The notes beneath the pieces were generated by a model that was not told the DNA's origin, did no database searches, and saw only the letters and a list, made by a program, of their open reading frames with translations. From positions 2,472,501 through 2,536,500 of the forward strand of contig NZ_CP013661.2 in NCBI RefSeq assembly GCF_001465835.2: 64,000 nucleotides of DNA, in the 5' to 3' direction. Positions 51,440 to 63,225 of this stretch are shown piece after piece. Positions within the stretch are counted from its first letter, which is position 1. Each line of letters starts with the position of its first letter. Source of the DNA: Planococcus kocurii (GTDB lineage Bacteria; Bacillota; Bacilli; Bacillales_A; Planococcaceae). A program made the translations under genes and the position numbers.

Positions 51440-51473
51440 TTGAACGTTAGTTGAGCGCTTTGTGCTCATAATA

Positions 51474-51513
51474 AAAAAAGTGATACCAGGCTAATACCTG
51501 GTATCACTTTTTT
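51474..51513 (+). terminator. Strong terminator after the S-layer gene
   Basis: AAAAAAGTGATACCAGG / CCTGGTATCACTTTTTT with a 6-nt loop. Confidence 0.95.
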
Positions 51514-51515
51514 GC

Positions 51516-51557
51516 TATTTGGTGCCTGGCACGCACGAAATTCACACACAATTCAAT
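51516..51557 (+). repeat. REP-like palindromic element 1
   Basis: Core ATTTGGTGCC-T-GGCAC, then a tail with AATTC and CAATTC downstream. The outer arms do not pair. The first 16 bases (ATTTGGTGCCTGGCAC) are identical to the reverse complement of element 5. Confidence 0.75.
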
Positions 51558-51603
51558 AAATGGTAAGATACGTATAAAAGAGTGGAAGAAAGGTGAAAAT
51601 CAC

Positions 51604-52944
51604 ATGAGGTTTCCTCAAAAATGTAACGCTGCCGTTATCTTTACGGGACTGCTGTCAATACTCTTGTTTTTTTCGACGATAACTACGTCGGCTAGTGCCG
51701 CTGCGCCACTAAAAGATGTGGCTACAACGCATTGGGCTTATCAAGACATTCAGTCGCTGCTCGGAAAAAACGTCTTGACTGGCTATTCGAATGGAACGTT
51801 CAAACCAGAACAAGACGTGACGCGTGCACAAGCGGCGAAAATTATTGCACTGGCTGCGGGTATTGAGCCGCTCAATCCGAAAACAGCGAGTTATCCTGAT
51901 GTGGCGACGGGTCACTGGGCATTTGGTTATATTGAAGCATTGAAAAAAGAAGGTGTTATTCATGGCAAAGGCAATGGGCTGTATGCTCCGGATGACAAGT
52001 TAACGCGTGGACAAATGGCCAAGATTTTGACAGAAGGTTTTGATCTTGTTGGGCACTCCGCGAATTTCTTTACCGACGTGACCACAACAGATTGGATGTT
52101 TACGTATGTCTTAGCACTGCGTGATAACGGCATTACGGTTGGGTATCCGGAAGACAATACCTACCGGCCAAACGGCATCGTCACACGTGCGCAAATGGCT
52201 GCGTTTGCCAATCGCGCGATGGAATGGAAAGCTCTTCAACAACCAGCACTTCCGAGTAAAGTTATTGGATTTGGAGACAGCAATACGTCAGGTTCTTATT
52301 TACCGAAAGAATTTCCCGACTACCCGAATCACAATTGGCCAACGTTAGCAGGAATCACCAATGCCGGTGTCAGTGGCAATACGACAGCAATTGCCTTGAA
52401 AAGATTCAAACAAGACGTGTTGGATCAACAGCCATCTACGGTCGTCATGATGTTCGGGTTGAACGACGCATTAATGCGTGCAGATACGAAACAACCACAA
52501 GTCAGTAAGGAGCAATTTGAAAAAAATATCTCGCAAATGACAACGCAAATGGTGGCAAAAGGCATAACGGTTGTTTTGATGACCAATTTGCCCGTCAATG
52601 AACGTGTGTACTACCAGTCTCAAGCAGCGCAAAACCCAGGTATTGAAAAACTCTATGCCAGTAAGGGGGGCCTTCATGCGTGGCAAGACAGCTACAATGA
52701 TATTATTCGCAAAGTCGCTGAACAACAAGGTGTTGAACTCATCGATAATTATGCCAACGCGGTGCAAAAAGCAGGAGGCGCAACAGACACTGATCTTGCA
52801 AGCAGCGGATTAGTCGATCCACTTCTCGGATTTCATTGGACGCCGCGCGGGCATATGATGGTGGCGCATTCCGTAAATGTGTGGGTGCCAGGCACCCACA
52901 CAACTCTCGCGCAATTCAACAACAAAACCCCCACAAGCCGGTAA
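51604..52944 (+). CDS. SLH-anchored SGNH/GDSL hydrolase
   Basis: A 446-residue exported esterase-like protein. Signal peptide to ASA (about residue 32), three SLH motifs (about 36-205; TRAQ, TRGQ, TRAQ), then an SGNH hydrolase: Ser in GFGDSNTSG, Gly in GVSGNTT, Asn in FGLNDALM and His in FHWTPRGHMM (the Asp lies five residues before the His, not the usual three). It may deacetylate wall glycans. The last ~21 residues (from VWVPGTHTT) are encoded by a REP element and the terminator arm, so the native C-terminus was probably replaced. AAAGGTG lies before the ATG. Confidence 0.88.
   Translation: MRFPQKCNAAVIFTGLLSILLFFSTITTSASAAAPLKDVATTHWAYQDIQSLLGKNVLTGYSNGTFKPEQDVTRAQAAKIIALAAGIEPLNPKTASYPDVATGHWAFGYIEALKKEGVIHGKGNGLYAPDDKLTRGQMAKILTEGFDLVGHSANFFTDVTTTDWMFTYVLALRDNGITVGYPEDNTYRPNGIVTRAQMAAFANRAMEWKALQQPALPSKVIGFGDSNTSGSYLPKEFPDYPNHNWPTLAGITNAGVSGNTTAIALKRFKQDVLDQQPSTVVMMFGLNDALMRADTKQPQVSKEQFEKNISQMTTQMVAKGITVVLMTNLPVNERVYYQSQAAQNPGIEKLYASKGGLHAWQDSYNDIIRKVAEQQGVELIDNYANAVQKAGGATDTDLASSGLVDPLLGFHWTPRGHMMVAHSVNVWVPGTHTTLAQFNNKTPTSR
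52879..52917 (+). repeat. REP-like palindromic element 2
   Basis: Perfect 11-bp arms GTGTGGGTGCC-A-GGCACCCACAC followed by a tail AACTCTCGCGCAATTC. It lies in frame within the 3' end of the SGNH hydrolase gene. The 35 bases 52882-52916 are identical, inverted, to 54932-54966. Confidence 0.9.
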
Positions 52945-52962
52945 TTCGGCGTGTGGGGGTTT
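52925..52962. terminator. Bidirectional terminator overlapping the SGNH gene stop
   Basis: AAACCCCCACA-A-GCCG / CGGC-G-TGTGGGGGTTT with the stop codon TAA in the loop; between convergent genes. Confidence 0.88.
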
Positions 52963-52978
52963 AACTGTGGTTTTAGGG

Positions 52979-54835
52979 TTAGTTACCAAACAGTTTTTCG
53001 AGTGAGTATTGATCTCCGAACAGCAGGTCGTATTGAATCATTTCGTATTGCTGTTTGGTGGTCTCCACTTTATCGGGAGTCACTTTATAAAGTTCGCCAT
53101 CTGCGTCTATTTTCACTTCGTTGGTGTAGCCCGGCATTTCCGCTTGGAAGTTTTCCAGTACTGCGTGATACAAAGGCTGCTCAATTCCAGCTAGGTCAAA
53201 GACGGTTGGTGCTAGGAAAGAGGGGCTGATTGTACCAAGGTCTGGAACTTCAGTGCCGTAGTTATTCCAAATAGCCAGCGGTGTGGATCTCATTTTCTTT
53301 TGATCTTCTAGGCTCCAATTAATGTCTCCTGCTCCGCGAGGGACATATCCAGCTTGCTTGAATAATTTATAGTCATTGCCGATCGCAGGTAAATGGTCTC
53401 CGAAAAAGACGACAATGGTTGGTTCGTCAGACGTTTCGTAATAATCGATCAAGCTCTTAAATGCAGCATCAGCGTCTGCGACTCCTTGTGTGTACGACCG
53501 CAACAATAAATTGAAAACGGGATCCACTCCAGGAGGTGTCTGCGTTTCGACAGTGAAATCTGGGTATTTATCCACGTTGTAACTCGTGTGGTTTTGCATC
53601 GTAATTGCATAGATAAATGACGGATCTTCATTCGCTTCTGTTTGTTCGATGATGGTATCGGTCACTTGCTGGTCAGAAACGTAAGGTCCTCGGTAGACAG
53701 GATCGGTAAACCCGTCAATATCAATGAATTCATCAAAACCGATATGTTTATACACTTCTTCCCGGTTCCAAAACCATTTCGGGTAAGGGTGAATGGCCGT
53801 CGTCTCATACCCGAGACTTGCCAAATAGTTAGGCATCGCCGGAATTTCACTTTTAATGTATTGCTGGTACGGAACGGAACCAGGCGGTAGGAACATATTG
53901 GTAAAACCCGTCAGCGCTTCGAACTCGACGTTACTCGTGCCGCCGCCAAAAGCAGGAGCCAAAATATGACCATCTTGCTGTGCTCTGACGTTTGGCATAG
54001 GGTCTTCATTAAACGACAACCCTTCAATCGACGTCGGGTCCCAGAAAGATTCGCTCATGATAAAGATGATGTTCGGATCTTGCTTAGCCGTTGAATTGGA
54101 TTGCGGTTCGACTTTAGTCAAGTTGTCAACAATATCCATCACGTTTTTTTCGTTGTAGCCACTTGGTGGCAGCACGATGGCACTTTGCATATTCAACATA
54201 AACGTCAACAAAAAGCCATTGGTTTTGTAATTGCGTTCTTGATCAAATGTCAGGTTGTTAATGTCGACATCTTTTAACGTGGACTCTACTTCAGGAATGG
54301 ACCGATAGAAAACAAAAATGCTCAAGTACGCGGCACCTAAACCAATAAACAGCATACGAACCCATGGGTTTAAGCGAATCCAGCGCTTTGGCTTTTTGAT
54401 AAACAGAAACACCGAAATGGCGACAATGACCGCCACGATAAGTCCGAAAACAAGAATAACTTGTGTCAAGTTGATCGTTTCATATAAATTTGGCAATAAA
54501 TTCAATACATTATTATAAAGCAACAAATCCCAAGGGTATAAAAATTCCCCTAAGAAACTGAATTTATAATAGCTGAAAACAGCCAGAGTCACCACTAACG
54601 CATTGGTGACGACAAAACTAACAAAATAACGATTAAAGATTCCTAAAAACACGATGAACAAGCTAAAAACAATCATGTAATTAAAGAAAAAGGCTTCTTT
54701 GTGATCACTGCGCCACACAGCGCGTTCAGCGTAACTACCGTTCAAATAGGTTTCAATTCCATTCACCAACAAAAAGAAATAAAACATGGTGGCTAACATC
54801 ACCAAAACCGGCTTGTAGCTCCATTTGACTTTCAT
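52979..54835 (-). CDS. ltaS: LtaS-type lipoteichoic acid synthase / sulfatase-fold phosphoglycerol transferase
   Basis: A 618-residue membrane enzyme: five N-terminal helices (to about residue 190) and an extracytoplasmic sulfatase-fold domain that polymerises glycerol phosphate from phosphatidylglycerol. Metal and catalytic motifs: IIFIMSESFWDPT (Glu), Thr300 nucleophile in GGGTSNVEFEALTG, FVVFFGDHLP (Asp-His). Thr300 matches the nucleophile number of Staphylococcus LtaS. The ATG at 54835 follows GAGGTG; upstream in-frame codons lack a site. Whether it is LtaS proper or a paralogue cannot be told. It is flanked by inverted REP elements. Confidence 0.87.
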   Translation of the reverse strand: MKVKWSYKPVLVMLATMFYFFLLVNGIETYLNGSYAERAVWRSDHKEAFFFNYMIVFSLFIVFLGIFNRYFVSFVVTNALVVTLAVFSYYKFSFLGEFLYPWDLLLYNNVLNLLPNLYETINLTQVILVFGLIVAVIVAISVFLFIKKPKRWIRLNPWVRMLFIGLGAAYLSIFVFYRSIPEVESTLKDVDINNLTFDQERNYKTNGFLLTFMLNMQSAIVLPPSGYNEKNVMDIVDNLTKVEPQSNSTAKQDPNIIFIMSESFWDPTSIEGLSFNEDPMPNVRAQQDGHILAPAFGGGTSNVEFEALTGFTNMFLPPGSVPYQQYIKSEIPAMPNYLASLGYETTAIHPYPKWFWNREEVYKHIGFDEFIDIDGFTDPVYRGPYVSDQQVTDTIIEQTEANEDPSFIYAITMQNHTSYNVDKYPDFTVETQTPPGVDPVFNLLLRSYTQGVADADAAFKSLIDYYETSDEPTIVVFFGDHLPAIGNDYKLFKQAGYVPRGAGDINWSLEDQKKMRSTPLAIWNNYGTEVPDLGTISPSFLAPTVFDLAGIEQPLYHAVLENFQAEMPGYTNEVKIDADGELYKVTPDKVETTKQQYEMIQYDLLFGDQYSLEKLFGN

Positions 54836-54903
54836 GTAAATCACCTCAAAAAAATTTTTCGACTTTGCTGCTCCTGCTGCAATCGGAATATCGACTACCC
54901 TCA

Positions 54904-54932
54904 AGTATAAAGGAAGTACAAGAGGCAAGCAA
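54904..54932 (-). promoter_or_regulatory. Candidate promoter for the ltaS-like gene
   Basis: On the minus strand TTGCTT (54932-54927) and TATACT (54909-54904) are 17 bases apart. The -35 touches the end of REP element 3. Confidence 0.4.
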
Positions 54933-54969
54933 ATTGCGCGAGAGTTGTGTGGGTGCCTGGCACCCATAC
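54932..54969 (-). repeat. REP-like palindromic element 3
   Basis: Arms GTGTGGGTGCC-T-GGCACCCATAC with one G-T mismatch; the tail AATTGCGCGAGAGTT is on the left, toward ltaS. It is a 35-base identical inverted copy of element 2. Confidence 0.9.
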
Positions 54970-55109
54970 AATATACCCAAAATTTAAAGAAAAAACGGTC
55001 AACAAGATAGCTTTGGAACCATGGACTTTTGATGTGTAAAATGGAAAAATGAAGGTGAATTAATTAATTGATAATTTCGATAATTTTATCTTGAAAGGGA
55101 GGAACCAAG

Positions 55110-58100
55110 ATGAGGGAAACAAGTTTTTGGTTAATGGTGTTCATCTTATTGATCAGTAGTGTCACAGGGTTCAGTAGTCCGGTCGCATCAAAAGCGCCAA
55201 ATCCCGAAGTGAAGCTGTCGAAAACCTTAGTAAAGCCGCAGTCACCAAAAGAAAAAGTGCGAATCATCATTGAATTACAAGAACAGCCGACGATTGAAAT
55301 CGCAACGACGAAGGGTGTTCTTTACAAAGAGTTGCCGGAAAGTCAGAAACAACGCATTGAAGCGGCTGCCGCTAAAAAACAAAAAACGGCACAAACAGCT
55401 ATTACGAAAGTGGCACCCAAAATCGATTATCTTCAAACGTTTACAGCGGTCTTTAACGGTTTCTCAGCAGAAGTTATTGCGGGACAAGTAGCCGAAATCG
55501 CGGAGTTGCCAAGTGTTAAAGCTGTATATGAAGCGACGGAGTATAAACGTCCTGCAGTCCAGCCGACGATGAAATACGCCAAAGAACTGGTTCAAGCGCA
55601 ACAAGCCTGGCGTGATTATGGCTTTAAAGGAGAAGGCATGATTGTCGGAGTAATCGATACAGGCATTGACTCGGGACATCGCGACATGAAACTGAGCGAT
55701 AACAAGACGGCTACCTTAACAAAAGGCCAAGTCGATGCGTTTGTCTCGGATCACGCAATTGAAGAAGGTGCATTTTTCACAGAAAAAGTACCGTTTGGTT
55801 ACAATTATATGGACGCCAACACTGAAATTCGTGACGTGGCACCGGGTGCTTCGATGCACGGCATGCACGTAGCCGGAACGATTGGTGCAAATGGCGATGA
55901 AAAAAAGGGCGGCATTAAAGGTGTTGCTCCGGAAGCGCAATTGTTGGCACTGAAAGTGTTCGGCAACGACGCTTTATACCCAACAACTTTCGGTGATATT
56001 TACATTAAAGCGATGGACGACGCCATTAAACTTGGTGCAGACGTTATCAACATGTCGCTCGGCGCCACCGCTGGATTTGTCGATACGTCGAGTCCTGAAC
56101 AGCAAGCAGTAGAACGTGCGACAAATAATGGGATTTTAGTAGCGATTTCTGCTGGCAACGAAGACATGCTGGGGTCTGGTTTTCAAGCACCTTTTGCCAA
56201 AAACCAAGACTACGGTTTGATTGGTACACCGGGAACTTCGGTGGATTCGTTCGGGGTAGCGTCATTTGAAAATACAGTGATTACAACGGAGAGTTTTGTC
56301 TACAGCGTAGACGGCAAAGTGTCGGCTCGTGCGCTATACTTGCCGGCAAACGAAGTCGACCCGCAAAAACTACCAGATGCTTCTTATCAAATGGTTGAAG
56401 TTGGACTCGGTATGCCTGAGGATTTTGAAGGCAAAGACTTGACCGATAAATTCGCGTTGATTGCACGCGGCACCATTCCATTTGCGGAAAAAGCTTTTGC
56501 AGCGCAGTCTGCTGGAGCAGCAGGGGTTATTATTTACAACAACACGACAGGACCCGTTAATATGGAATGGGATCCGTCTATTACCATTCCGTTTTTGTCG
56601 ACACTTCAAAAAGATGGATTGGCCATGAAAGCAGCATTACAAGCTGGAAAAGCGGTCACCATTGCGTTTGACGGAAAAGAGCTTGAGACGCCGAATCCAA
56701 ATGCCGGTAAAATGAGTGATTTTACGTCTTGGGGACCAACACCCAACTTGGATTTTAAGCCAGAAATCACTGCACCTGGAGGTAATATTTTCTCGACGCT
56801 AAATGACAACGACTACGGGTTGATGAGTGGTACATCGATGGCGGCACCACACGTAGCAGGAGGAACGGCATTGATTTTTCAGCGCATTGAAGAGCTTGGC
56901 TTAGCAGGCAGAGACCGCGTTGAGTTCGCCAAAAACTTGCTGATGAATACGGCCAATCCAGTTGAACTGGTAGCGGGTCAATTCGTGTCACCAAGACGTC
57001 AAGGCGCAGGACTGATGCAGTTGCACGACGCCTTATCGACCGACGTAATCGTCACGGACGGAGCGACTGGTGACGCCAAAGTCGCGTTAAAAGAACTGAC
57101 AAAAAATCAACTCACCATCAAGTTGCAAGCTGAAAATTTCTCAGACACGGCAGCAACTTACGCAATCACAGTTAACGTTCAAACCGATGCAATTGCAAAA
57201 CACAAAAAGCGCAAGATCAACACGACCGATCCTAATCGAGCAGGATCAAAAGTGGTAACAGATCTCGTCAACATTACCGCACCCGACCTTGTGACGGTAC
57301 CAGCAAATGGCACGACAGAAATTCAAGTGACGATCGATGCGTCAACTTTAGTAGGACGTCCCGAATTTAAAGCGTTCACTAACGGCTTTTTCATCGACGG
57401 GTTTATTACATTAACCGATGCGAGCGAAGAAGTGACCGGCAACACGCCGCTGACTGTGCCATATTTTGGCTTTAATGGCAAATGGGACGCAGCGTCGATT
57501 TTTGATGACGTCGCATGGAGCCCAGAAACGTTTTACGCTTCGACATTTTTAACGGACGATTTTGGATTGATCGTCAACGGCGGCAGCCACCAACAAGGTT
57601 TTGTTCCTGAGCGTTTTGCTTTTTCACCAAATGGCGACGGGAGCCGGGAGTCGATTATTCCCGTATTTTCGCTGTTGCGTAACGCCAAAGCGTTGGAAGT
57701 AAACGTGCTGGACGCGGATGGCAAGAAACTCCGGACCTTGCAGACAGGAAAAAACCTAGTGAAAAACTTCACGGAAAGCTTCTCCTATTATTATGATTTT
57801 TTCAACGAATGGAACGGCGAAGTGCTCGGCAAGCCAGTTAAAGACGGCCAGTATCAACTGCAAATGCGTGCGGTTATTGATTATCCAGGTGCTAAATGGC
57901 AGTCACGAGTCATGCCGATTTTAGTGGATACCGTGGCACCTAAAGCAACTGCTACGTTGGATACGAAAACGGGCACGGTGAAAGTCACCAGCTTTACCGA
58001 TAACAAAGAAGGCGGAGGACCTGACCGTTGGGAAGTGTTCCATAACGGTGTGGAACTAACGCAAGCTCCGGACAGCTTTGAAGACCAGTCGTTATCACCG

Positions 58101-58769
58101 AGCGTCAAGAGCTACAAATTGCCTGTGGCCATCAAAAAAGGCGACAAGCTAAACGCGGTATTCCATGATACCGCCGGCAATAAAATCACAGTGCCACTAA
58201 CCGGTATTGTTGCAGATACACAACAACCAGCAGTGTCCATCATCTCGCCGGGGCTTTTCGAAGTGCTAAGTACGAAGAGAGTCGGCGTATTCGGTGTCGT
58301 AGAAGACCAGTCACGTATCGTCTCAGTAACCGTTAACGGTGAAAAAGCCGAACGCTTTGACGGACTGTTTTTCCAACACACCTTAACACTCAAAGACGGG
58401 CGTAACGACATCTTCGCTAAAGCCGTCGACGAAGCTGGCAACGAACTCGAAGTACGCAGCCAAGTGTTAATCGATACACAGCCGGCGCTACTGAAATTTT
58501 TGGATCTGCCAGAAACTGTGGGTGCAGAAGCAGATTCTGCAGAAGTAAGGTTTAATGTCTCAGACAACATGAACGCCATCCAAGTGTATGTAATCGACAG
58601 CGAAGTTTTTCGCCAAGACATGACCGAGCCCTACGGCGAAGTCGGCTTTGATGAAGACATCACCATCACGGTTCCAGTTGCTGCTCTAGGTGATAACAAA
58701 TTCACCTTGAAAGTCATCGACGCAGCAGGACATGTCACAGAAGAAAGCTTCACGATCAAGAAACAGTGA
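55110..58769 (+). CDS. Large secreted subtilisin-family (S8) protease, lactocepin-like
   Basis: A 1219-residue exported serine protease. Signal peptide to about residue 27; inhibitor I9 propeptide (about 50-145); S8 domain with Asp183 (GVIDTGIDS), His250 (HGMHVAGT), oxyanion Asn region (AISAGNED) and Ser576 (GTSMAAPHVAGG). A PA insert lies between (FALIARGTIPFAEKAFAAQSAGAAGVIIYN, about 430-530). C-terminal Fn3-like and Ig-like repeats follow (about 640-1219; the last three are AVSIISPGLFEVLSTKRVG.., etc.). No SLH, LPXTG or other anchor seen, so it may be released. GGGAGG lies before the ATG. Confidence 0.92.
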   Translation: MRETSFWLMVFILLISSVTGFSSPVASKAPNPEVKLSKTLVKPQSPKEKVRIIIELQEQPTIEIATTKGVLYKELPESQKQRIEAAAAKKQKTAQTAITKVAPKIDYLQTFTAVFNGFSAEVIAGQVAEIAELPSVKAVYEATEYKRPAVQPTMKYAKELVQAQQAWRDYGFKGEGMIVGVIDTGIDSGHRDMKLSDNKTATLTKGQVDAFVSDHAIEEGAFFTEKVPFGYNYMDANTEIRDVAPGASMHGMHVAGTIGANGDEKKGGIKGVAPEAQLLALKVFGNDALYPTTFGDIYIKAMDDAIKLGADVINMSLGATAGFVDTSSPEQQAVERATNNGILVAISAGNEDMLGSGFQAPFAKNQDYGLIGTPGTSVDSFGVASFENTVITTESFVYSVDGKVSARALYLPANEVDPQKLPDASYQMVEVGLGMPEDFEGKDLTDKFALIARGTIPFAEKAFAAQSAGAAGVIIYNNTTGPVNMEWDPSITIPFLSTLQKDGLAMKAALQAGKAVTIAFDGKELETPNPNAGKMSDFTSWGPTPNLDFKPEITAPGGNIFSTLNDNDYGLMSGTSMAAPHVAGGTALIFQRIEELGLAGRDRVEFAKNLLMNTANPVELVAGQFVSPRRQGAGLMQLHDALSTDVIVTDGATGDAKVALKELTKNQLTIKLQAENFSDTAATYAITVNVQTDAIAKHKKRKINTTDPNRAGSKVVTDLVNITAPDLVTVPANGTTEIQVTIDASTLVGRPEFKAFTNGFFIDGFITLTDASEEVTGNTPLTVPYFGFNGKWDAASIFDDVAWSPETFYASTFLTDDFGLIVNGGSHQQGFVPERFAFSPNGDGSRESIIPVFSLLRNAKALEVNVLDADGKKLRTLQTGKNLVKNFTESFSYYYDFFNEWNGEVLGKPVKDGQYQLQMRAVIDYPGAKWQSRVMPILVDTVAPKATATLDTKTGTVKVTSFTDNKEGGGPDRWEVFHNGVELTQAPDSFEDQSLSPSVKSYKLPVAIKKGDKLNAVFHDTAGNKITVPLTGIVADTQQPAVSIISPGLFEVLSTKRVGVFGVVEDQSRIVSVTVNGEKAERFDGLFFQHTLTLKDGRNDIFAKAVDEAGNELEVRSQVLIDTQPALLKFLDLPETVGAEADSAEVRFNVSDNMNAIQVYVIDSEVFRQDMTEPYGEVGFDEDITITVPVAALGDNKFTLKVIDAAGHVTEESFTIKKQ

Positions 58770-58788
58770 GTGAATAATAGAGTGTTTG

Positions 58789-58833
58789 ATTGTTTGGGTG
58801 CCAGGCACCCAAACAATTCAAACACAATTCAAA
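58789..58833 (+). repeat. REP-like palindromic element 4
   Basis: Perfect 14-bp arms ATTGTTTGGGTGCC-A-GGCACCCAAACAAT, followed by a tail with ATTC and CAATTC, toward the transposase gene. It lies 20 bases after the protease stop and may act as its 3' hairpin. Confidence 0.92.
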
Positions 58834-59009
58834 AAAATATTTTGAAAGAGAATTTGCAGGTTATCGAGTGGTTTCACAGTGAAAAATTAGTTTTGAGTCA
58901 GTATGCGTACATAAATCCAAGTTATTGTCTTTTTAGAACAATTGACGAACCTCAATCTTATTTCTACTATAGTTATAATCAGTAGTTGAAAAGGAAGGAG
59001 CGTGAAACG

Positions 59010-59591
59010 ATGGGGAGAAGTCGACGTATTTGGACTCCGCATGCATACGAACATGTTGTGATGAGAGGCAACAACAGGCAAGCGATTTTTCAAGAGAAAT
59101 CAGATATCGACGCTTTTTTTAGAGTCTTAACGTATGCACACGAAAAGTACCCGTTTACCATGTTGGCCTATTGCTTAATGACCAACCATTACCACTTATT
59201 GATCCGCTCACCCGAAGTCCCGTTAAGCAAGCTAATGGCGCTCATCAACAAACGCTACAGCGATTATCACAAGAAAAAATACAACTACAGCGGCTATTTT
59301 TACGAAAGCCGTTATTATTCGGGCAAAGCCATAACCCACAAAAGCATCCTCGCAGTTAGCCGATACGTCCACAGAAACCCCATAGATACCAGTACCCCCA
59401 TGGTAGCCACAATGAAAGACTATCCACACAGCTCGTACCGATTATACGCAGATGCGCTACAAGCCCCCTATCAATTCCTCGATTTAAGTTATTTGCCAAC
59501 CCTTCTGCCAAGGCCATATTCCAAATGCTTAACGGGTTATTTGATGTACTGCGAAGAACGGGATCTTCCGGAGAGGAGAGATGGGGAATAG
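59010..59591 (+). CDS. REP-associated tyrosine transposase (RAYT, Y1_Tnp family)
   Basis: A 193-residue HUH-superfamily single-strand transposase. N-terminal MGRSRRIWTPHAYEHVVMRGNNRQAIFQ is typical of RAYTs; the metal-binding HUH pair is His60-Tyr-His62 (MTNHYHLLIRS) and the nucleophile is Tyr83 or Tyr86 in NKRYSDYHKK; the GYFYESRYYS motif follows. Such enzymes nick and join palindromic REP sequences and are usually domesticated single-copy genes. The ATG at 59010 lies 9 bases after AAGGAG; a TTG at 58986 is less likely. Inverted REP elements stand on both sides with tails facing in. Confidence 0.93.
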   Translation: MGRSRRIWTPHAYEHVVMRGNNRQAIFQEKSDIDAFFRVLTYAHEKYPFTMLAYCLMTNHYHLLIRSPEVPLSKLMALINKRYSDYHKKKYNYSGYFYESRYYSGKAITHKSILAVSRYVHRNPIDTSTPMVATMKDYPHSSYRLYADALQAPYQFLDLSYLPTLLPRPYSKCLTGYLMYCEERDLPERRDGE

Positions 59592-59632
59592 AATTGTACG
59601 AGAATTGAGCGGGTGCCAGGCACCAAATAAGA
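59591..59632 (-). repeat. REP-like palindromic element 5
   Basis: Tail GAATTG..GAGAATTG first, then GGTGCC-A-GGCACC-AAATAA. The orientation is opposite to element 4; the tail begins at the last base of the transposase stop codon. Only the 6-bp inner arms pair. Confidence 0.85.
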
Positions 59633-59727
59633 AAATTATTTCATTATTTGCATAAATTTAATAAAGCGTTTACAATTTTGCGCTATACTTGATAAGTAAC
59701 TCATTCTATTCAAAGGAAGTGGAGCTT

Positions 59728-62700
59728 TTGTCGAGAAACACATGGACGAAGATTTTTTTGAGTTTACTACTGGTTTTGTCTGCAGTACTGCCTTACACAG
59801 CAGCAACTGCAACTGCTGCAGAACCGATTACGGTAGCTGAAGCCATTGCGAATAATTCCGGTTCGGCTACGGTGAAAGGATTTATCGTCGGGACAGTCAT
59901 TAGCAACACTAGCTACGACCAAGAAGCGCCTTTTGCAGCTGCTTCAAATCTAGGGCTTGCTGATTCACCAAATGAAACCGATCCGACGAAAATTCTTCCA
60001 GTTCAGTTGCCATCAAGTTCCGCAATTCGTGCAGGTTTAAACTTGGTGAACAATCCAACTAAGTTTAAAGCAGAAGTGACCATTACAGGTTCATTAGAAA
60101 CTTACTTTACAACAGCAGGTCTAAAGTCTCCAACGGCTTTCACGATTCTGTCTGAAGGTGAAGTACCACCTGAGGCAACTGTCGTCGATACGTTGGCACA
60201 AGCGCGCACGATGTCGGGCAAACTCGTCCAAGTTGACGCCACGGTGACAACAGGCATAGGATTTTGGGGCGCGACTGCCTTTTATGTACAAGACGATACA
60301 GCTGGCATGTACGTTTATGCTTCAAACGCCACCGTTGCACCGGGAGACAAGGTGCGGTTGACGGGAACGGTCGCGGAGTATAGCGGCGAGCTTCAGCTGC
60401 AGCCGAATACAATAGAAGTTCTTTCTACAGGCAACGACTTGCCGTCCGCTCAAACCGTTACACCGACCGCTATCAATGAACAGACACAAGGCGAGCGTAT
60501 TGAATTAGAAAATGTGACCATCACAAACTTGAAATCCGTTAACGATTTTGGAACGTTTGAGTTTTCGGCAACAGCTGAAAACGGTGAAACGGTCACCATT
60601 CGTAACGATAACCGCAACGGACTAAACTTCGAACAATTTACGAAGCAATACAAAGAAGGCGATTTAATCCATGTCAGCGGAATCGCTTCAAAGTTCAACG
60701 CTTCTTATCAGGTGAAAACACTCGGCTTCGAGAGCTTTGACCTTGTGAATAAGCCAGCTGTCTATGTGGATGTGTTTCCAGGTGTCGTTTCGGAAGGCAC
60801 TGAAATCACGCTAGCTTCAGGCTGGAAAAACGCCGCTATTTACTATACGCTTGACGGTTCCACACCAACTGCCGCAAGCACCAAATACACAGCGCCAATC
60901 GTTTTGACAAAAGACGTAACGATCAAAGCCATCGCCATCACGGACGAAACGTCTGAGATTTTTACTTTTACTTACACCGTTTTGAAAACAGGCGCCTTGA
61001 AAATCCGTGATATTCAAGGCGCGAATCATTACTCAGATTACCAAGGTGTCGTTGTCAATGAAATCGTCGGTGTCGTGACACACGTCTACAACTCGGCAAA
61101 CTTCGTCATTCAAGACATCAATCCAGATGATGATGTGACAACTTCAGAAGCATTGATGGTCAATAAAGCATCAAATGGTCTTCAACTTGGTGACCTGGTT
61201 ACCATCACCGGAACTGTAGAAGAGCATTTCCAAGAAGGCTATTCAGATGCAAAAGATAACGATTTACCAATCACGCGTATTCGTGCGACTGACGCAACCA
61301 AAACAGCAACAGCCGCACTTCCTGAACCCATTGTCATTGGAAAAGACGTTCAACCGCCATCTGAGATTATCGATAACGATGGCTTAACATCGTTTGATCC
61401 GACAGAAGACGGCGTTGATTTCTGGGAATCCCTTGAACTTATGCGCTTAGCTGTACCAAACGCACAGGTTGTGGGACCACAAAACTACGGCGAAGTGGTC
61501 GTCGTTGCTGAAAACTCACCAGGCACAGAATTCCATAAACAAGGTGGAATTTTGCTTTCAGAAAATGACTATAACCCAGAACGCATTACCGTCGATTTCA
61601 ACAATGAAAACTACGTAGCCAAGGCAGGCGACTCGTTTACCGGTAATATTATCGGCGTAATGGGCTTCGGCTTTGGTAACTACAAGCTATGGGCGACAGA
61701 AAATGATTTACCAACGCTTAAAGACGGCGGCACGAAGCCGGAACAAACATGGATTGCTAAGCAAAAAGACGAACTGACGGTAGCCGCTTATAATGTAGAA
61801 AATTTTTCTGCAGATCCGAGTCATACATCTGATACCAAAGCACAGCGCATTGCAGAGTCGTTCGTTAACGACTTAAACTCACCAGACATCATCGTTATGG
61901 TAGAAGTACAAGACAATGACGGCCCGGTTGCATCAGGAAACAGTGACGCAACGTTAAGCTATGAACGGTTGATTCAAGACATCAAAACAGCAGGCGGTCC
62001 AACATATGCCTGGACTGACATCGCACCTGAATACAACAAAGACGGTGGGCAACCAGGTGGCAACATCCGTGTCGGGTATTTGTATAATCCTGAACGCGTA
62101 ACCTTGTCAGAAGGAACAAAAGGCACTGCAACTCAAGACAACTCGTGGGTAGACGGCGAACTGGCTTTGAATCCAGGACGCGTTCAACCAATCGCAATGC
62201 CAAACACCCGTAAACCAATTGCTGCACAATTTGACTTCCAAGGTGAGCAGGTCGTCGTTATTGGCGCTCACTTAAACTCAAAAGGTGGAGACCAGCCACT
62301 ATTCGGCAAAAACCAGCCGCCTGTTCTTGGCTCTGTTGCAGAGCGCATTGAACTGGCAACAGCGATTAACGGCTTTATCGCGGATGGACTTAAACAAAAT
62401 CCAGACTTGAACGTGATCGTTGCAGGAGACATGAATGATTTCGAATTTACGCCTGCGCTAGCCGCATTAAAAGGCGATATTTTAACGAATAAAGTCGAAG
62501 ATGTGCCAGTAGAAGATCGCTTTTCGTATTATTACCAAGGAAATTCACAAGTACTCGATCACTTGCTTGTGACGAACAACTTGGCACAACGTACAGAACT
62601 GGATATGGTCCACATTAACGCGATGTTCATGGAACAACAGGGCCGCGCATCAGATCATGATCCGCTACTAGCACAAATTGCCTTCGAAAAACCATCAGTT

Positions 62701-63225
62701 CCGGGCGAACAACAAGCAAATCCTGACTTTTCAGGTGACCAGGCTGTCGTTACAGCGGGCGAACCGAATAAAGATGGAGAACTTGCCATTACATTTACTG
62801 AAAGAAATCTAGTTGAACTGCTGAAGAGCGGCAAAGACTTACGGGTCGACATGCCGACAGCAGCTGTCAGCTTTTCAGCTGAAAACATTCAGCAAATTGT
62901 CTCAGCTGCAGGATCTGCATTTGTATTAGAGCTAGTAGTGGCAGACGCAAAAGAAGTCGACAAACGCCCAACTCTTACGAAACAAATCGACTTGTCGGTA
63001 ACGGATGCAGCAGGAAAAGACCTTGCTTTGACATTCACTTCACCGGTGACACTGGCATTTGACACAACGAAAGACGTGAAAATCCAGTTTGGTGCGCGTG
63101 AAGATCGTAAAGGCAAGTGGAAAATCATGCAAGGAACATTAAAAGGGTCAACGTTTACTCTTCATGTGAACGAGTTAGGAAACTACACAGTCGTTACAAA
63201 TAAAGGCCAAATAAAGAAAAAATAA
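59728..63225 (+). CDS. Large secreted endonuclease/exonuclease/phosphatase-family nuclease
   Basis: A 1165-residue exported nuclease. Signal peptide to ATA (about residue 31); an N-terminal repeat region (about 40-130) followed by OB-fold nucleic-acid modules (about 150-330; ARTMSGKLVQVDATVTTGIG, ISEQTQGERIELENVTITN type); a chitobiase-like beta segment (about 345-410, IYYTLDGSTPTAASTKYTAPI); a third OB fold (about 420-520); and the EEP catalytic domain (about 680-1000) with AAYNVENFS, VMVEVQD, GAHLNSKGG, AGDMNDFEF, DHLL, SDHDP. Resembles YhcR/ExeM-type extracellular nucleases. TTG start after AAGGAAG by 9 bases. No SLH or LPXTG anchor. Confidence 0.9.
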   Translation: MSRNTWTKIFLSLLLVLSAVLPYTAATATAAEPITVAEAIANNSGSATVKGFIVGTVISNTSYDQEAPFAAASNLGLADSPNETDPTKILPVQLPSSSAIRAGLNLVNNPTKFKAEVTITGSLETYFTTAGLKSPTAFTILSEGEVPPEATVVDTLAQARTMSGKLVQVDATVTTGIGFWGATAFYVQDDTAGMYVYASNATVAPGDKVRLTGTVAEYSGELQLQPNTIEVLSTGNDLPSAQTVTPTAINEQTQGERIELENVTITNLKSVNDFGTFEFSATAENGETVTIRNDNRNGLNFEQFTKQYKEGDLIHVSGIASKFNASYQVKTLGFESFDLVNKPAVYVDVFPGVVSEGTEITLASGWKNAAIYYTLDGSTPTAASTKYTAPIVLTKDVTIKAIAITDETSEIFTFTYTVLKTGALKIRDIQGANHYSDYQGVVVNEIVGVVTHVYNSANFVIQDINPDDDVTTSEALMVNKASNGLQLGDLVTITGTVEEHFQEGYSDAKDNDLPITRIRATDATKTATAALPEPIVIGKDVQPPSEIIDNDGLTSFDPTEDGVDFWESLELMRLAVPNAQVVGPQNYGEVVVVAENSPGTEFHKQGGILLSENDYNPERITVDFNNENYVAKAGDSFTGNIIGVMGFGFGNYKLWATENDLPTLKDGGTKPEQTWIAKQKDELTVAAYNVENFSADPSHTSDTKAQRIAESFVNDLNSPDIIVMVEVQDNDGPVASGNSDATLSYERLIQDIKTAGGPTYAWTDIAPEYNKDGGQPGGNIRVGYLYNPERVTLSEGTKGTATQDNSWVDGELALNPGRVQPIAMPNTRKPIAAQFDFQGEQVVVIGAHLNSKGGDQPLFGKNQPPVLGSVAERIELATAINGFIADGLKQNPDLNVIVAGDMNDFEFTPALAALKGDILTNKVEDVPVEDRFSYYYQGNSQVLDHLLVTNNLAQRTELDMVHINAMFMEQQGRASDHDPLLAQIAFEKPSVPGEQQANPDFSGDQAVVTAGEPNKDGELAITFTERNLVELLKSGKDLRVDMPTAAVSFSAENIQQIVSAAGSAFVLELVVADAKEVDKRPTLTKQIDLSVTDAAGKDLALTFTSPVTLAFDTTKDVKIQFGAREDRKGKWKIMQGTLKGSTFTLHVNELGNYTVVTNKGQIKKK

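Follow-up and report, generated by a model that had tools for sequence, protein, structure and literature searches.

A RAYT gene with its own family of palindromes in Planococcus, and palindromes at the ends of gene blocks that differ between species

REP-associated tyrosine transposases (RAYTs) and the repetitive extragenic palindromes (REPs) beside their genes have been described from gammaproteobacteria as REPtrons. In the portions of PMC2817692 and PMC8266576 on which we draw, REPs accumulate near rayt genes in three marine gammaproteobacteria and in Thauera, within regions of up to about 200 kb, and such local accumulation in Marinomonas and its relatives is interpreted there as pointing to a recent arrival. 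TnpAREP subclass 2.1 differs in that the available sections of Quentin (2018, PMC6006769) report no REP-like sequences for it, and some of the terminal inverted repeats (TIRs) of the related TIRYT proteins are self-complementary and fall into moderately repeated families, according to excerpts of PMC3733652 and PMC6006769. Here, we analyse a RAYT gene and five REP-like palindromes at positions 51516..59632 of a 64,000-nt stretch of the Planococcus kocurii genome (the window). The results of the current study point to a RAYT with its own REP family and, with what we judge to be close to an even chance, to gene blocks between REPs that would be exchanged by strand exchange from one REP to another. 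The comparative finding that REPs bound gene blocks is a new point; none of the matches listed by our literature search, with subscription papers outside its scope, has a title or abstract that deals with these hairpins in Bacillota or with gene units delimited by REPs.

A search of the whole window with the core GGTGCCWGGCACC, allowing up to two mismatches, returned five matches, at 51521 (one mismatch, with G at the end), 52884, 54952, 58797 and 59612, whereas 100 shuffled windows gave a mean of 0.47, a maximum of three and never five. The five palindromes with a shared core proposed in an earlier note on this DNA (elements 1 to 5, Table 1) are therefore real, and so are their AATTC tails. 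The 60 tailed copies from four species, i.e. the P. kocurii genome (G000) and the compared genomes G012, G028 and G020 (C1 and C2 below denote contigs), give the consensus CAMACAATTC with a weaker second copy, and every copy in the window is tailed on at least one side; the canonical GT[AG]G foot of the hairpin does not occur, and this consensus is the conserved flank. REPs of this GGTGCC family are single and about 35-45 bp long. Of 65 copies in the stretches from the four species, 38 are tailed at both ends and 18 at one end, and the remaining nine belong to neither class. The one-sided copies, some of them orthologous, have a T-rich stretch before the core edge (T at -1 in 15/18 and at -5 in 14/18), which looks like a target preference. 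The earlier note had also described outer arms that differ between copies and remain complementary. This pattern holds more widely, as 311 of the 360 arm cells in 36 distinct two-sided 33-mers from the four species are paired, against a mean of 285 and a maximum of 300 in shuffles (0 of 2000 reached 311), and 20 of the 36 have G-C as the third arm pair, whereas 12 have T-A. Such covariation fits selection on the hairpin, but it also fits correction of the palindrome by template switching.

The arrangement of the five elements is only partly the one first described. Elements 4 and 5 are indeed inverted around the RAYT gene with their tails directed inward, and REPs stand at both positions in G012, G028 and G020; REPs also lie on both sides of the gene in G007, there with a GAC hairpin. 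Elements 2 and 3 do point their tails into the ltaS-like gene, but they are not a pair conserved between species. Counterparts of elements 1, 2, 4 and 5, though not of element 3, are present in G012, and the nested inverted pairs are not supported as units. Instead, elements 3 and 5, which share one orientation, bound a block made up of the S8 protease and RAYT genes, and the ends of this block are the points at which synteny with G028 and G020 breaks. The ltaS-like gene has no blastn match in the stretches examined from those two genomes. The stretch of identity between elements 1 and 5 exists, and is 17 bases long rather than the 16 claimed.

The copy number of the core follows the RAYT. The whole-genome mapping that the earlier note had proposed found 12 exact cores in the 3.49 Mb P. 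kocurii genome, 11 of them within 82 kb (C2 2525384-2606961, which contains the window locus) and one at 959061; two cores with one mismatch, at 2524021 and 2555884, share this region, and two more, at 987588 and 2919639, lie outside it. The 13 copies of the 2.52-2.61 Mb region are nowhere closer than 815 bp and are thus not REPIN or BIME (bacterial interspersed mosaic element) doublets. A RAYT relative is encoded in 25 of the 60 genomes searched. Three other genomes encode a close orthologue, with 83, 81 and 78% identity, and have 22, 11 and 8 exact cores, whereas the other 56 genomes, which lack a close RAYT, have 0-2 each. The core is therefore abundant only in the four Planococcus genomes with a close RAYT, where RAYT and cognate REPs form a compact system, and an abundance of this palindrome in genomes without the close RAYT, the kind of pattern named beforehand as contrary to the proposal, was not seen. 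On the 3' side of the RAYT, GGTGCC-family copies (counted with one mismatch tolerated) point to it in 8/9 cases in G000, 17/26 in G012, 5/9 in G028 and 2/3 in G020, the orientation of many copies in the relatives being uncertain because those copies are two-sided. The counts also bear on whether selection has kept the hairpins, in a region of surface-protein genes, to terminate transcription or stabilise mRNA at the ends of genes. Several REPs do lie directly past stop codons and their outer arms covary, but the hairpins of the window have no following T-run, REPs also occur among sugar-utilisation operons, and the GGTGCC hairpin is numerous only alongside a close RAYT; we consider this explanation very improbable.

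A paralogous RAYT at nine Planococcus loci, 45-49% identical to that of the window, has a REP family of its own, consisting of TGTCCCTGTG[CT]NNNNCACAATT-type repeats (TGTCCC REPs, counted with up to three mismatches unless described as exact). These are mostly direct dimers, with a 65-bp spacing seen 124 times, and so do not form the inverted REPIN/BIME unit. The exact C-variant is confined to two clusters in each of the five genomes whose copies were listed in full: G021 (48 in total, 24 of them at 705-776 kb and the other 24 at 2504-2540 kb), G009 (24 and 25 of 49), G019 (20 and 28 of 48), G004 (13 and 17 of 30) and G024 (19 and 23 of 42, on two contigs). G004, G009, G019 and G024 have few exact T-variants, located in the same clusters or at most about 25 kb from them, and the exact T-variants of G011 (23) and G022 (25) are likewise in two places. 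One cluster begins at the RAYT and extends 35-67 kb from its 3' side in the stretches examined; across five genomes, 177 of the 183 TGTCCC REPs on that side are directed to the RAYT, as are 14 of the 18 on the 5' side. The second array lies on the other replication arm, at G022:C1:683817-729602 and at matching places in G009, G011, G019 and G021; its distance from the origin is comparable to that of the first array without being equal to it. A mirrored placement of the second cluster about the replication origin, with dnaA located, was considered and dropped, as the distances agree in G000 and differ by about 200 kb in G022. An orientation set by the direction of replication alone was likewise rejected, because, judged against the direction inferred for the fork, the two families in G000 and G022 appear to have opposite senses. 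The arrays are collinear between several Planococcus species and are therefore not recent.

The REPs of both families often coincide with places where gene content differs between species. We defined a simple indel (insertion or deletion) as 500 bp or more on one side of an alignment against 150 bp or less on the other. In a first test on three alignments (two of G022/G011 arrays and one of G000/G012), 11 of 18 simple indels had a REP at the short side, including four of the five between G000 and G012, and eight of the 18 had REPs at both ends of the long side, whereas 1-7% of positions were near a REP. Because REPs lie between genes, we also applied a stricter control, in which pseudo-REPs were put at random into intergenic gaps. 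In 20 pairwise alignments of five species, 67 of 127 simple indels lay at a REP, whereas 1000 draws of pseudo-REPs gave 27.3 on average and never more than 40; the alignments share species, and the pairs are not independent. REP duplication was seen in 35 of the 82 distinct long-side intervals, which gives 34 distinct REP-ended inserts of 0.7-32 kb, some of them nested. One block of 21.3 kb carries alpha- and beta-galactosidases, an epimerase, a galactokinase and an aldose epimerase, and other blocks that we read hold a HUMPS-family gene with an SIS-domain gene, or a lone Excalibur-domain gene. The latter is found in G012 as REP-gene-REP where G000 has REP 2 alone, and its relatives in G000 and G028 adjoin other REPs. 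REPs are thus frequent junctions of the presence and absence of genes and operons; in many cases, the vacant site has a single REP, and the occupied site is bracketed by REPs. The suggestion that segments bounded by REPs differ between species is borne out by these indels and by the varied content beside the window RAYT. The comparison of vacant sites that accompanied it succeeded in part: REP-bounded indels were found, and clean sites for single GGTGCC REPs were mostly unreadable in G000, G012, G028 and G020 because the intergenic sequence has diverged.

Ordinary REP amplification with local hopping near the RAYT, as proposed for Marinomonas, might seem to suffice, the REPs then marking gaps between genes that tolerate indels. 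It would agree with the accumulation of REPs near rayt genes in gammaproteobacteria (in the consulted part of PMC2817692), with the T at -1 of the one-sided copies, as a target preference would give, and with the mixed orientation of copies in G012 and G028. Local hopping does not, however, predict a single orientation for 177 of 183 copies on one side of the RAYT or REPs at both ends of inserts, and pseudo-REPs in intergenic gaps coincided with at most 40 indels, against 67 for the real REPs. We therefore regard this explanation as improbable.

Two sites illustrate the variability. The interval that runs from the RAYT's 3' REP to a conserved trypsin-like gene holds an ExeM-like nuclease gene in G000 and the nuclease gene followed by another REP in G012. 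It contains no gene in G028, three genes that lack a Pfam match and are closed by a REP in G020, and an S8 protease gene in G007, so that five species show four different contents. The nuclease gene is missing from this interval in G028, G020 and G007, and in G028 and G020 it sits on the far side of the protease genes. The second site concerns a nag operon of about 5.5 kb (phosphotransferase system (PTS)-amidohydrolase-glucosamine isomerase-GntR-SIS), which is flanked by REP dimers in the second array of G009 and G021; at this place, G011 and G019 have a single dimer. In G019, the operon is found in the RAYT array instead, with its 3' end adjoining a REP dimer and the relative orientation kept. 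Clean vacant nag sites in the RAYT arrays of G009 and G011, which had appeared as candidates, were not upheld on closer reading, and the G019 site itself does not form a clean vacant-filled pair because an intervening REP is absent and the order of the flanks differs in G022.

We propose a series of linked steps that would account for these patterns. The REPs would form single-strand hairpins, which the RAYT is expected to recognise. A block between two REPs of the same orientation would be the equivalent of an IS200/IS605-like element with the REPs as its two ends, and strand exchange between REPs would excise the block, so that a single REP stays at the old site, and insert it at a further REP. 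If such insertions recurred, an array would extend outward from the RAYT's 3' REP, its copies all one way round. The RAYT would be the catalyst; with long blocks, host recombination may assist it or take its place. A wider form of the proposal, in which RAYT and REP constitute a platform for gene capture, i.e. an HUH single-strand recombinase that acts on folded hairpins and acquires, keeps and swaps whole genes and operons at arrays with the 3' REP as main entry, appears to us unlikely at present.

Several observations weigh against exchange between REPs. Cleavage, excision and circles are so far predictions of the proposal, block lengths of 5-32 kb are large for a single-strand transposition event at the replication fork, and the indels could all be losses through recombination between REPs. 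Sixty of the 127 indels lie away from REPs, and the same-orientation ends of 30 of the 34 inserts are near the background of adjacent REP blocks (128/158). The orientation bias of the GGTGCC family is weak in G012, G028 and G020, many of whose copies are two-sided. The second array has no RAYT in G022 and G011, and G004 (30) and G025 (39) have exact TGTCCC-type REPs with no RAYT match at E 0.001; the RAYT may have been lost from these two genomes. With respect to the nag operon, the G019 copy has a REP only at its 3' end; past its other end lie a 115-residue frame and then a REP dimer, no REP (at up to six mismatches) lies between operon and frame, and the same frame stands beside a REP without the operon in G011, G021 and G022. 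Moreover, the nag copies of the two arrays are about 70% identical, so that independent entry is as possible as a move.

An alternative is that the RAYT spread the REPs long ago and host recombination (RecA, annealing or slippage) has since added and deleted the DNA between them, the RAYT having no part in the blocks. The TGTCCC REPs are mostly dimers at the recurrent 65-bp spacing, and such dimers are long enough for homologous recombination. Each REP-bounded indel can be read as a deletion, and arrays persist where no RAYT was detected. Host recombination between REPs accounts for losses at least as simply as an active process, chiefly for long blocks and REP dimers. However, single 35-45 bp GGTGCC REPs also bound indels (4/5 for G000 against G012), and an operon in different arrays according to species, together with changing content beside the RAYT, exceeds what deletion gives. 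The single short REPs and the changing RAYT-adjacent content speak for an active process; we consider host recombination alone a real possibility and nevertheless hold exchange between REPs, tentatively, as our reading.

The link between RAYT and hairpin extends to other Bacillota. We examined 36 of 80 Bacillota RAYT loci, 14 of which were read in detail, and found the GGTGCC core (up to one mismatch) at 12 of the 36; among the 14, L104 showed no match. The hairpins vary by compensated changes while still flanking the gene, with the tails, where they could be oriented, inward in L073, L074, L084, L088 and L092 and not in L086. The hairpin GGTGACWGTCACC has three copies in P. halotolerans, one each in G005 and G036 and none in the other 33 of 36 genomes, TGTACCNGGTACA has 20 copies in Ureibacillus and 21 in Lysinibacillus, and GGTGCCTGTCACY has 18 to 104 copies in six genomes. 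That the type of hairpin, including the TGTCCC type, varies with the RAYT supports the RAYT-REP link. Local density was tested in seven of nine genomes with whole-genome counts (G060 and G064 were left out), and REP density within about 10 kb of the RAYT, less the flanking pair, exceeded that of the genome in six of the seven (P 0.024 or less), Ureibacillus being the exception. In Cerasibacillus, the 67 kb surrounding the RAYT contain 16 of the 24 copies; G064 is among the genomes with widely spread copies. Close inverted doublets occur in more distant relatives, e.g. at G064 C2 272386+/272413-. Separately, 14 GGTGTCAGGCACC-like palindromes were observed in 20 kb around a RAYT relative of Bacillus sp. 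AFS073361 (L099).

The window protein is classed as RAYT-like by its motifs and the relatives of its fold, because its score against NF047646 (REP_Tyr_transpos) is 62.2 bits, below the cut-off of 80. A profile of nine relatives matches the TnpArep structure 4er8 (E 1e-6). The HUH and tyrosine motifs are intact (NHYH and YVHRNP), and N59, H60, H62, Y119, H121, R122, N123 and P124 are invariant among the nine aligned sequences. The protein has the features of RAYT class 2, namely HUH and a single tyrosine with Y---NP, and a gene flanked by an inverted repeated palindrome. Compared with the subclass 2.1/TIRYT motifs NH[YF]H and Y[IV]HLNP, NHYH agrees and YVHRNP has R in place of L. Going by its motifs, this RAYT, which has cognate REPs, probably belongs to a subclass for which the literature reports none. 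The P. kocurii genome also encodes a second RAYT (L040, G000:C2:2587840-2588370), directly 3' of a gene that we take to encode ComM/YifB; no flanking palindrome with at least eight paired bases was found within 500 bp of it. This linkage occurs in eight of 30 loci scanned, and the eight paralogues that follow the ComM/YifB gene, the P. kocurii one among them, have no common inverted repeat of at least 12 bases.

Table 1. REP elements and neighbouring genes in the window
Feature	Position	Strand	Remarks
REP element 1	51521..51554	+	one-sided, core with 1 mismatch; G012 counterpart at 851673
SLH-domain GDSL hydrolase	51604..52944	+	PF00395, PF13472; 3' end overlaps REP 2
REP element 2	52880..52918	+	within 3' end of SLH-GDSL reading frame
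ltaS-like sulfatase-family gene	52979..54835	-	PF00884; between REP 2 and REP 3; start inferred from G012 orthologue
REP element 3	54929..54969	-	left end of S8 protease-RAYT block, adjoins synteny break with G028, G020; G012 counterpart absent
S8 family protease gene	55110..58769	+	PF00082 5.2e-53; between REP 3 and REP 4
REP element 4	58790..58831	+	5' flank of RAYT; REP at matching place in G012, G028, G020
RAYT, Y1 HUH single-strand transposase, 193 aa	59010..59591	+	PF01797 1.1e-14
REP element 5	59588..59624	-	3' flank of RAYT; gene content past element 5 varies by species
ExeM/NucH-like nuclease gene	59689..63225	+	NF033681 5.9e-49, below model cut-off; between REP 5 and conserved trypsin-like gene

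The longest ltaS-like frame begins within element 3, and a start near 54835 is more likely, following the G012 orthologue. At 51473-51513, just past an SLH surface-protein gene and beside REP 1, an inverted repeat followed by a T-run resembles an ordinary terminator. Beyond the window end, a GC-rich repeat of about 200 bp (L044:7896-8098, G000:C2:2537895-2538097) has 25 matches in the P. kocurii genome and occurs in all 36 same-genus genomes searched, with one weak match outside the genus. Its stem seems, by eye, to covary, and several of its G012 copies lie between REPs. Rfam gave no match at the gathering threshold in six 20-kb loci, so that at this threshold the repeat is no known RNA.

If REPs bound exchangeable blocks, the system would be useful to its host, which would bear on why bacteria retain domesticated RAYTs and REPs. 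The question could be studied in Planococcus, whose genomes include vacant as well as filled sites, an operon that occurs in more than one array, and two types of RAYT, each with its own hairpin, and our results would extend REP-bearing RAYTs to the Bacillota and probably to a subclass without reported REPs. The gammaproteobacterial REPtrons (E. coli TnpAREP; Marinomonas REPtrons Ma and Mb) resemble the Planococcus system in having a RAYT between inverted REPs and a copy number tied to the RAYT; they differ from it in that the Planococcus REPs have an AATTC tail without the GTAG foot, a Bacillota host, species-collinear arrays and variable gene blocks between them. The TIRYT/TIRtron of Di Nocera (2013) and TnpAREP subclass 2.1 of Quentin (2018) share the NH[YF]H and Y[IV]H-NP motifs found here, but the TIR motif GGGGWSAS lies outside the Planococcus hairpin, and the parts of PMC3733652 and PMC6006769 consulted describe no gene units for TIRtrons. 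The IS200/IS605 transposons have a related HUH-Y transposase. Their hairpin ends are in direct orientation. Nothing resembling tnpB was noticed next to the RAYT, although no search aimed at tnpB was made; unlike IS200/IS605, the RAYT is present as one or few genes per genome, and the blocks between REPs are ordinary metabolic and surface genes. Integron cassette arrays are similar in their folded single-strand sites, a recombinase at one end, blocks between repeats and variable content beside the recombinase. The folding of attC is mentioned in the accessible part of PMC8266576. In contrast to integrons, the Planococcus enzyme is an HUH-Y1 protein instead of a tyrosine integrase, and the blocks span operons with genes on both strands; if the gene-capture form of the proposal is true, an integron-like function would have been reached through unrelated chemistry.

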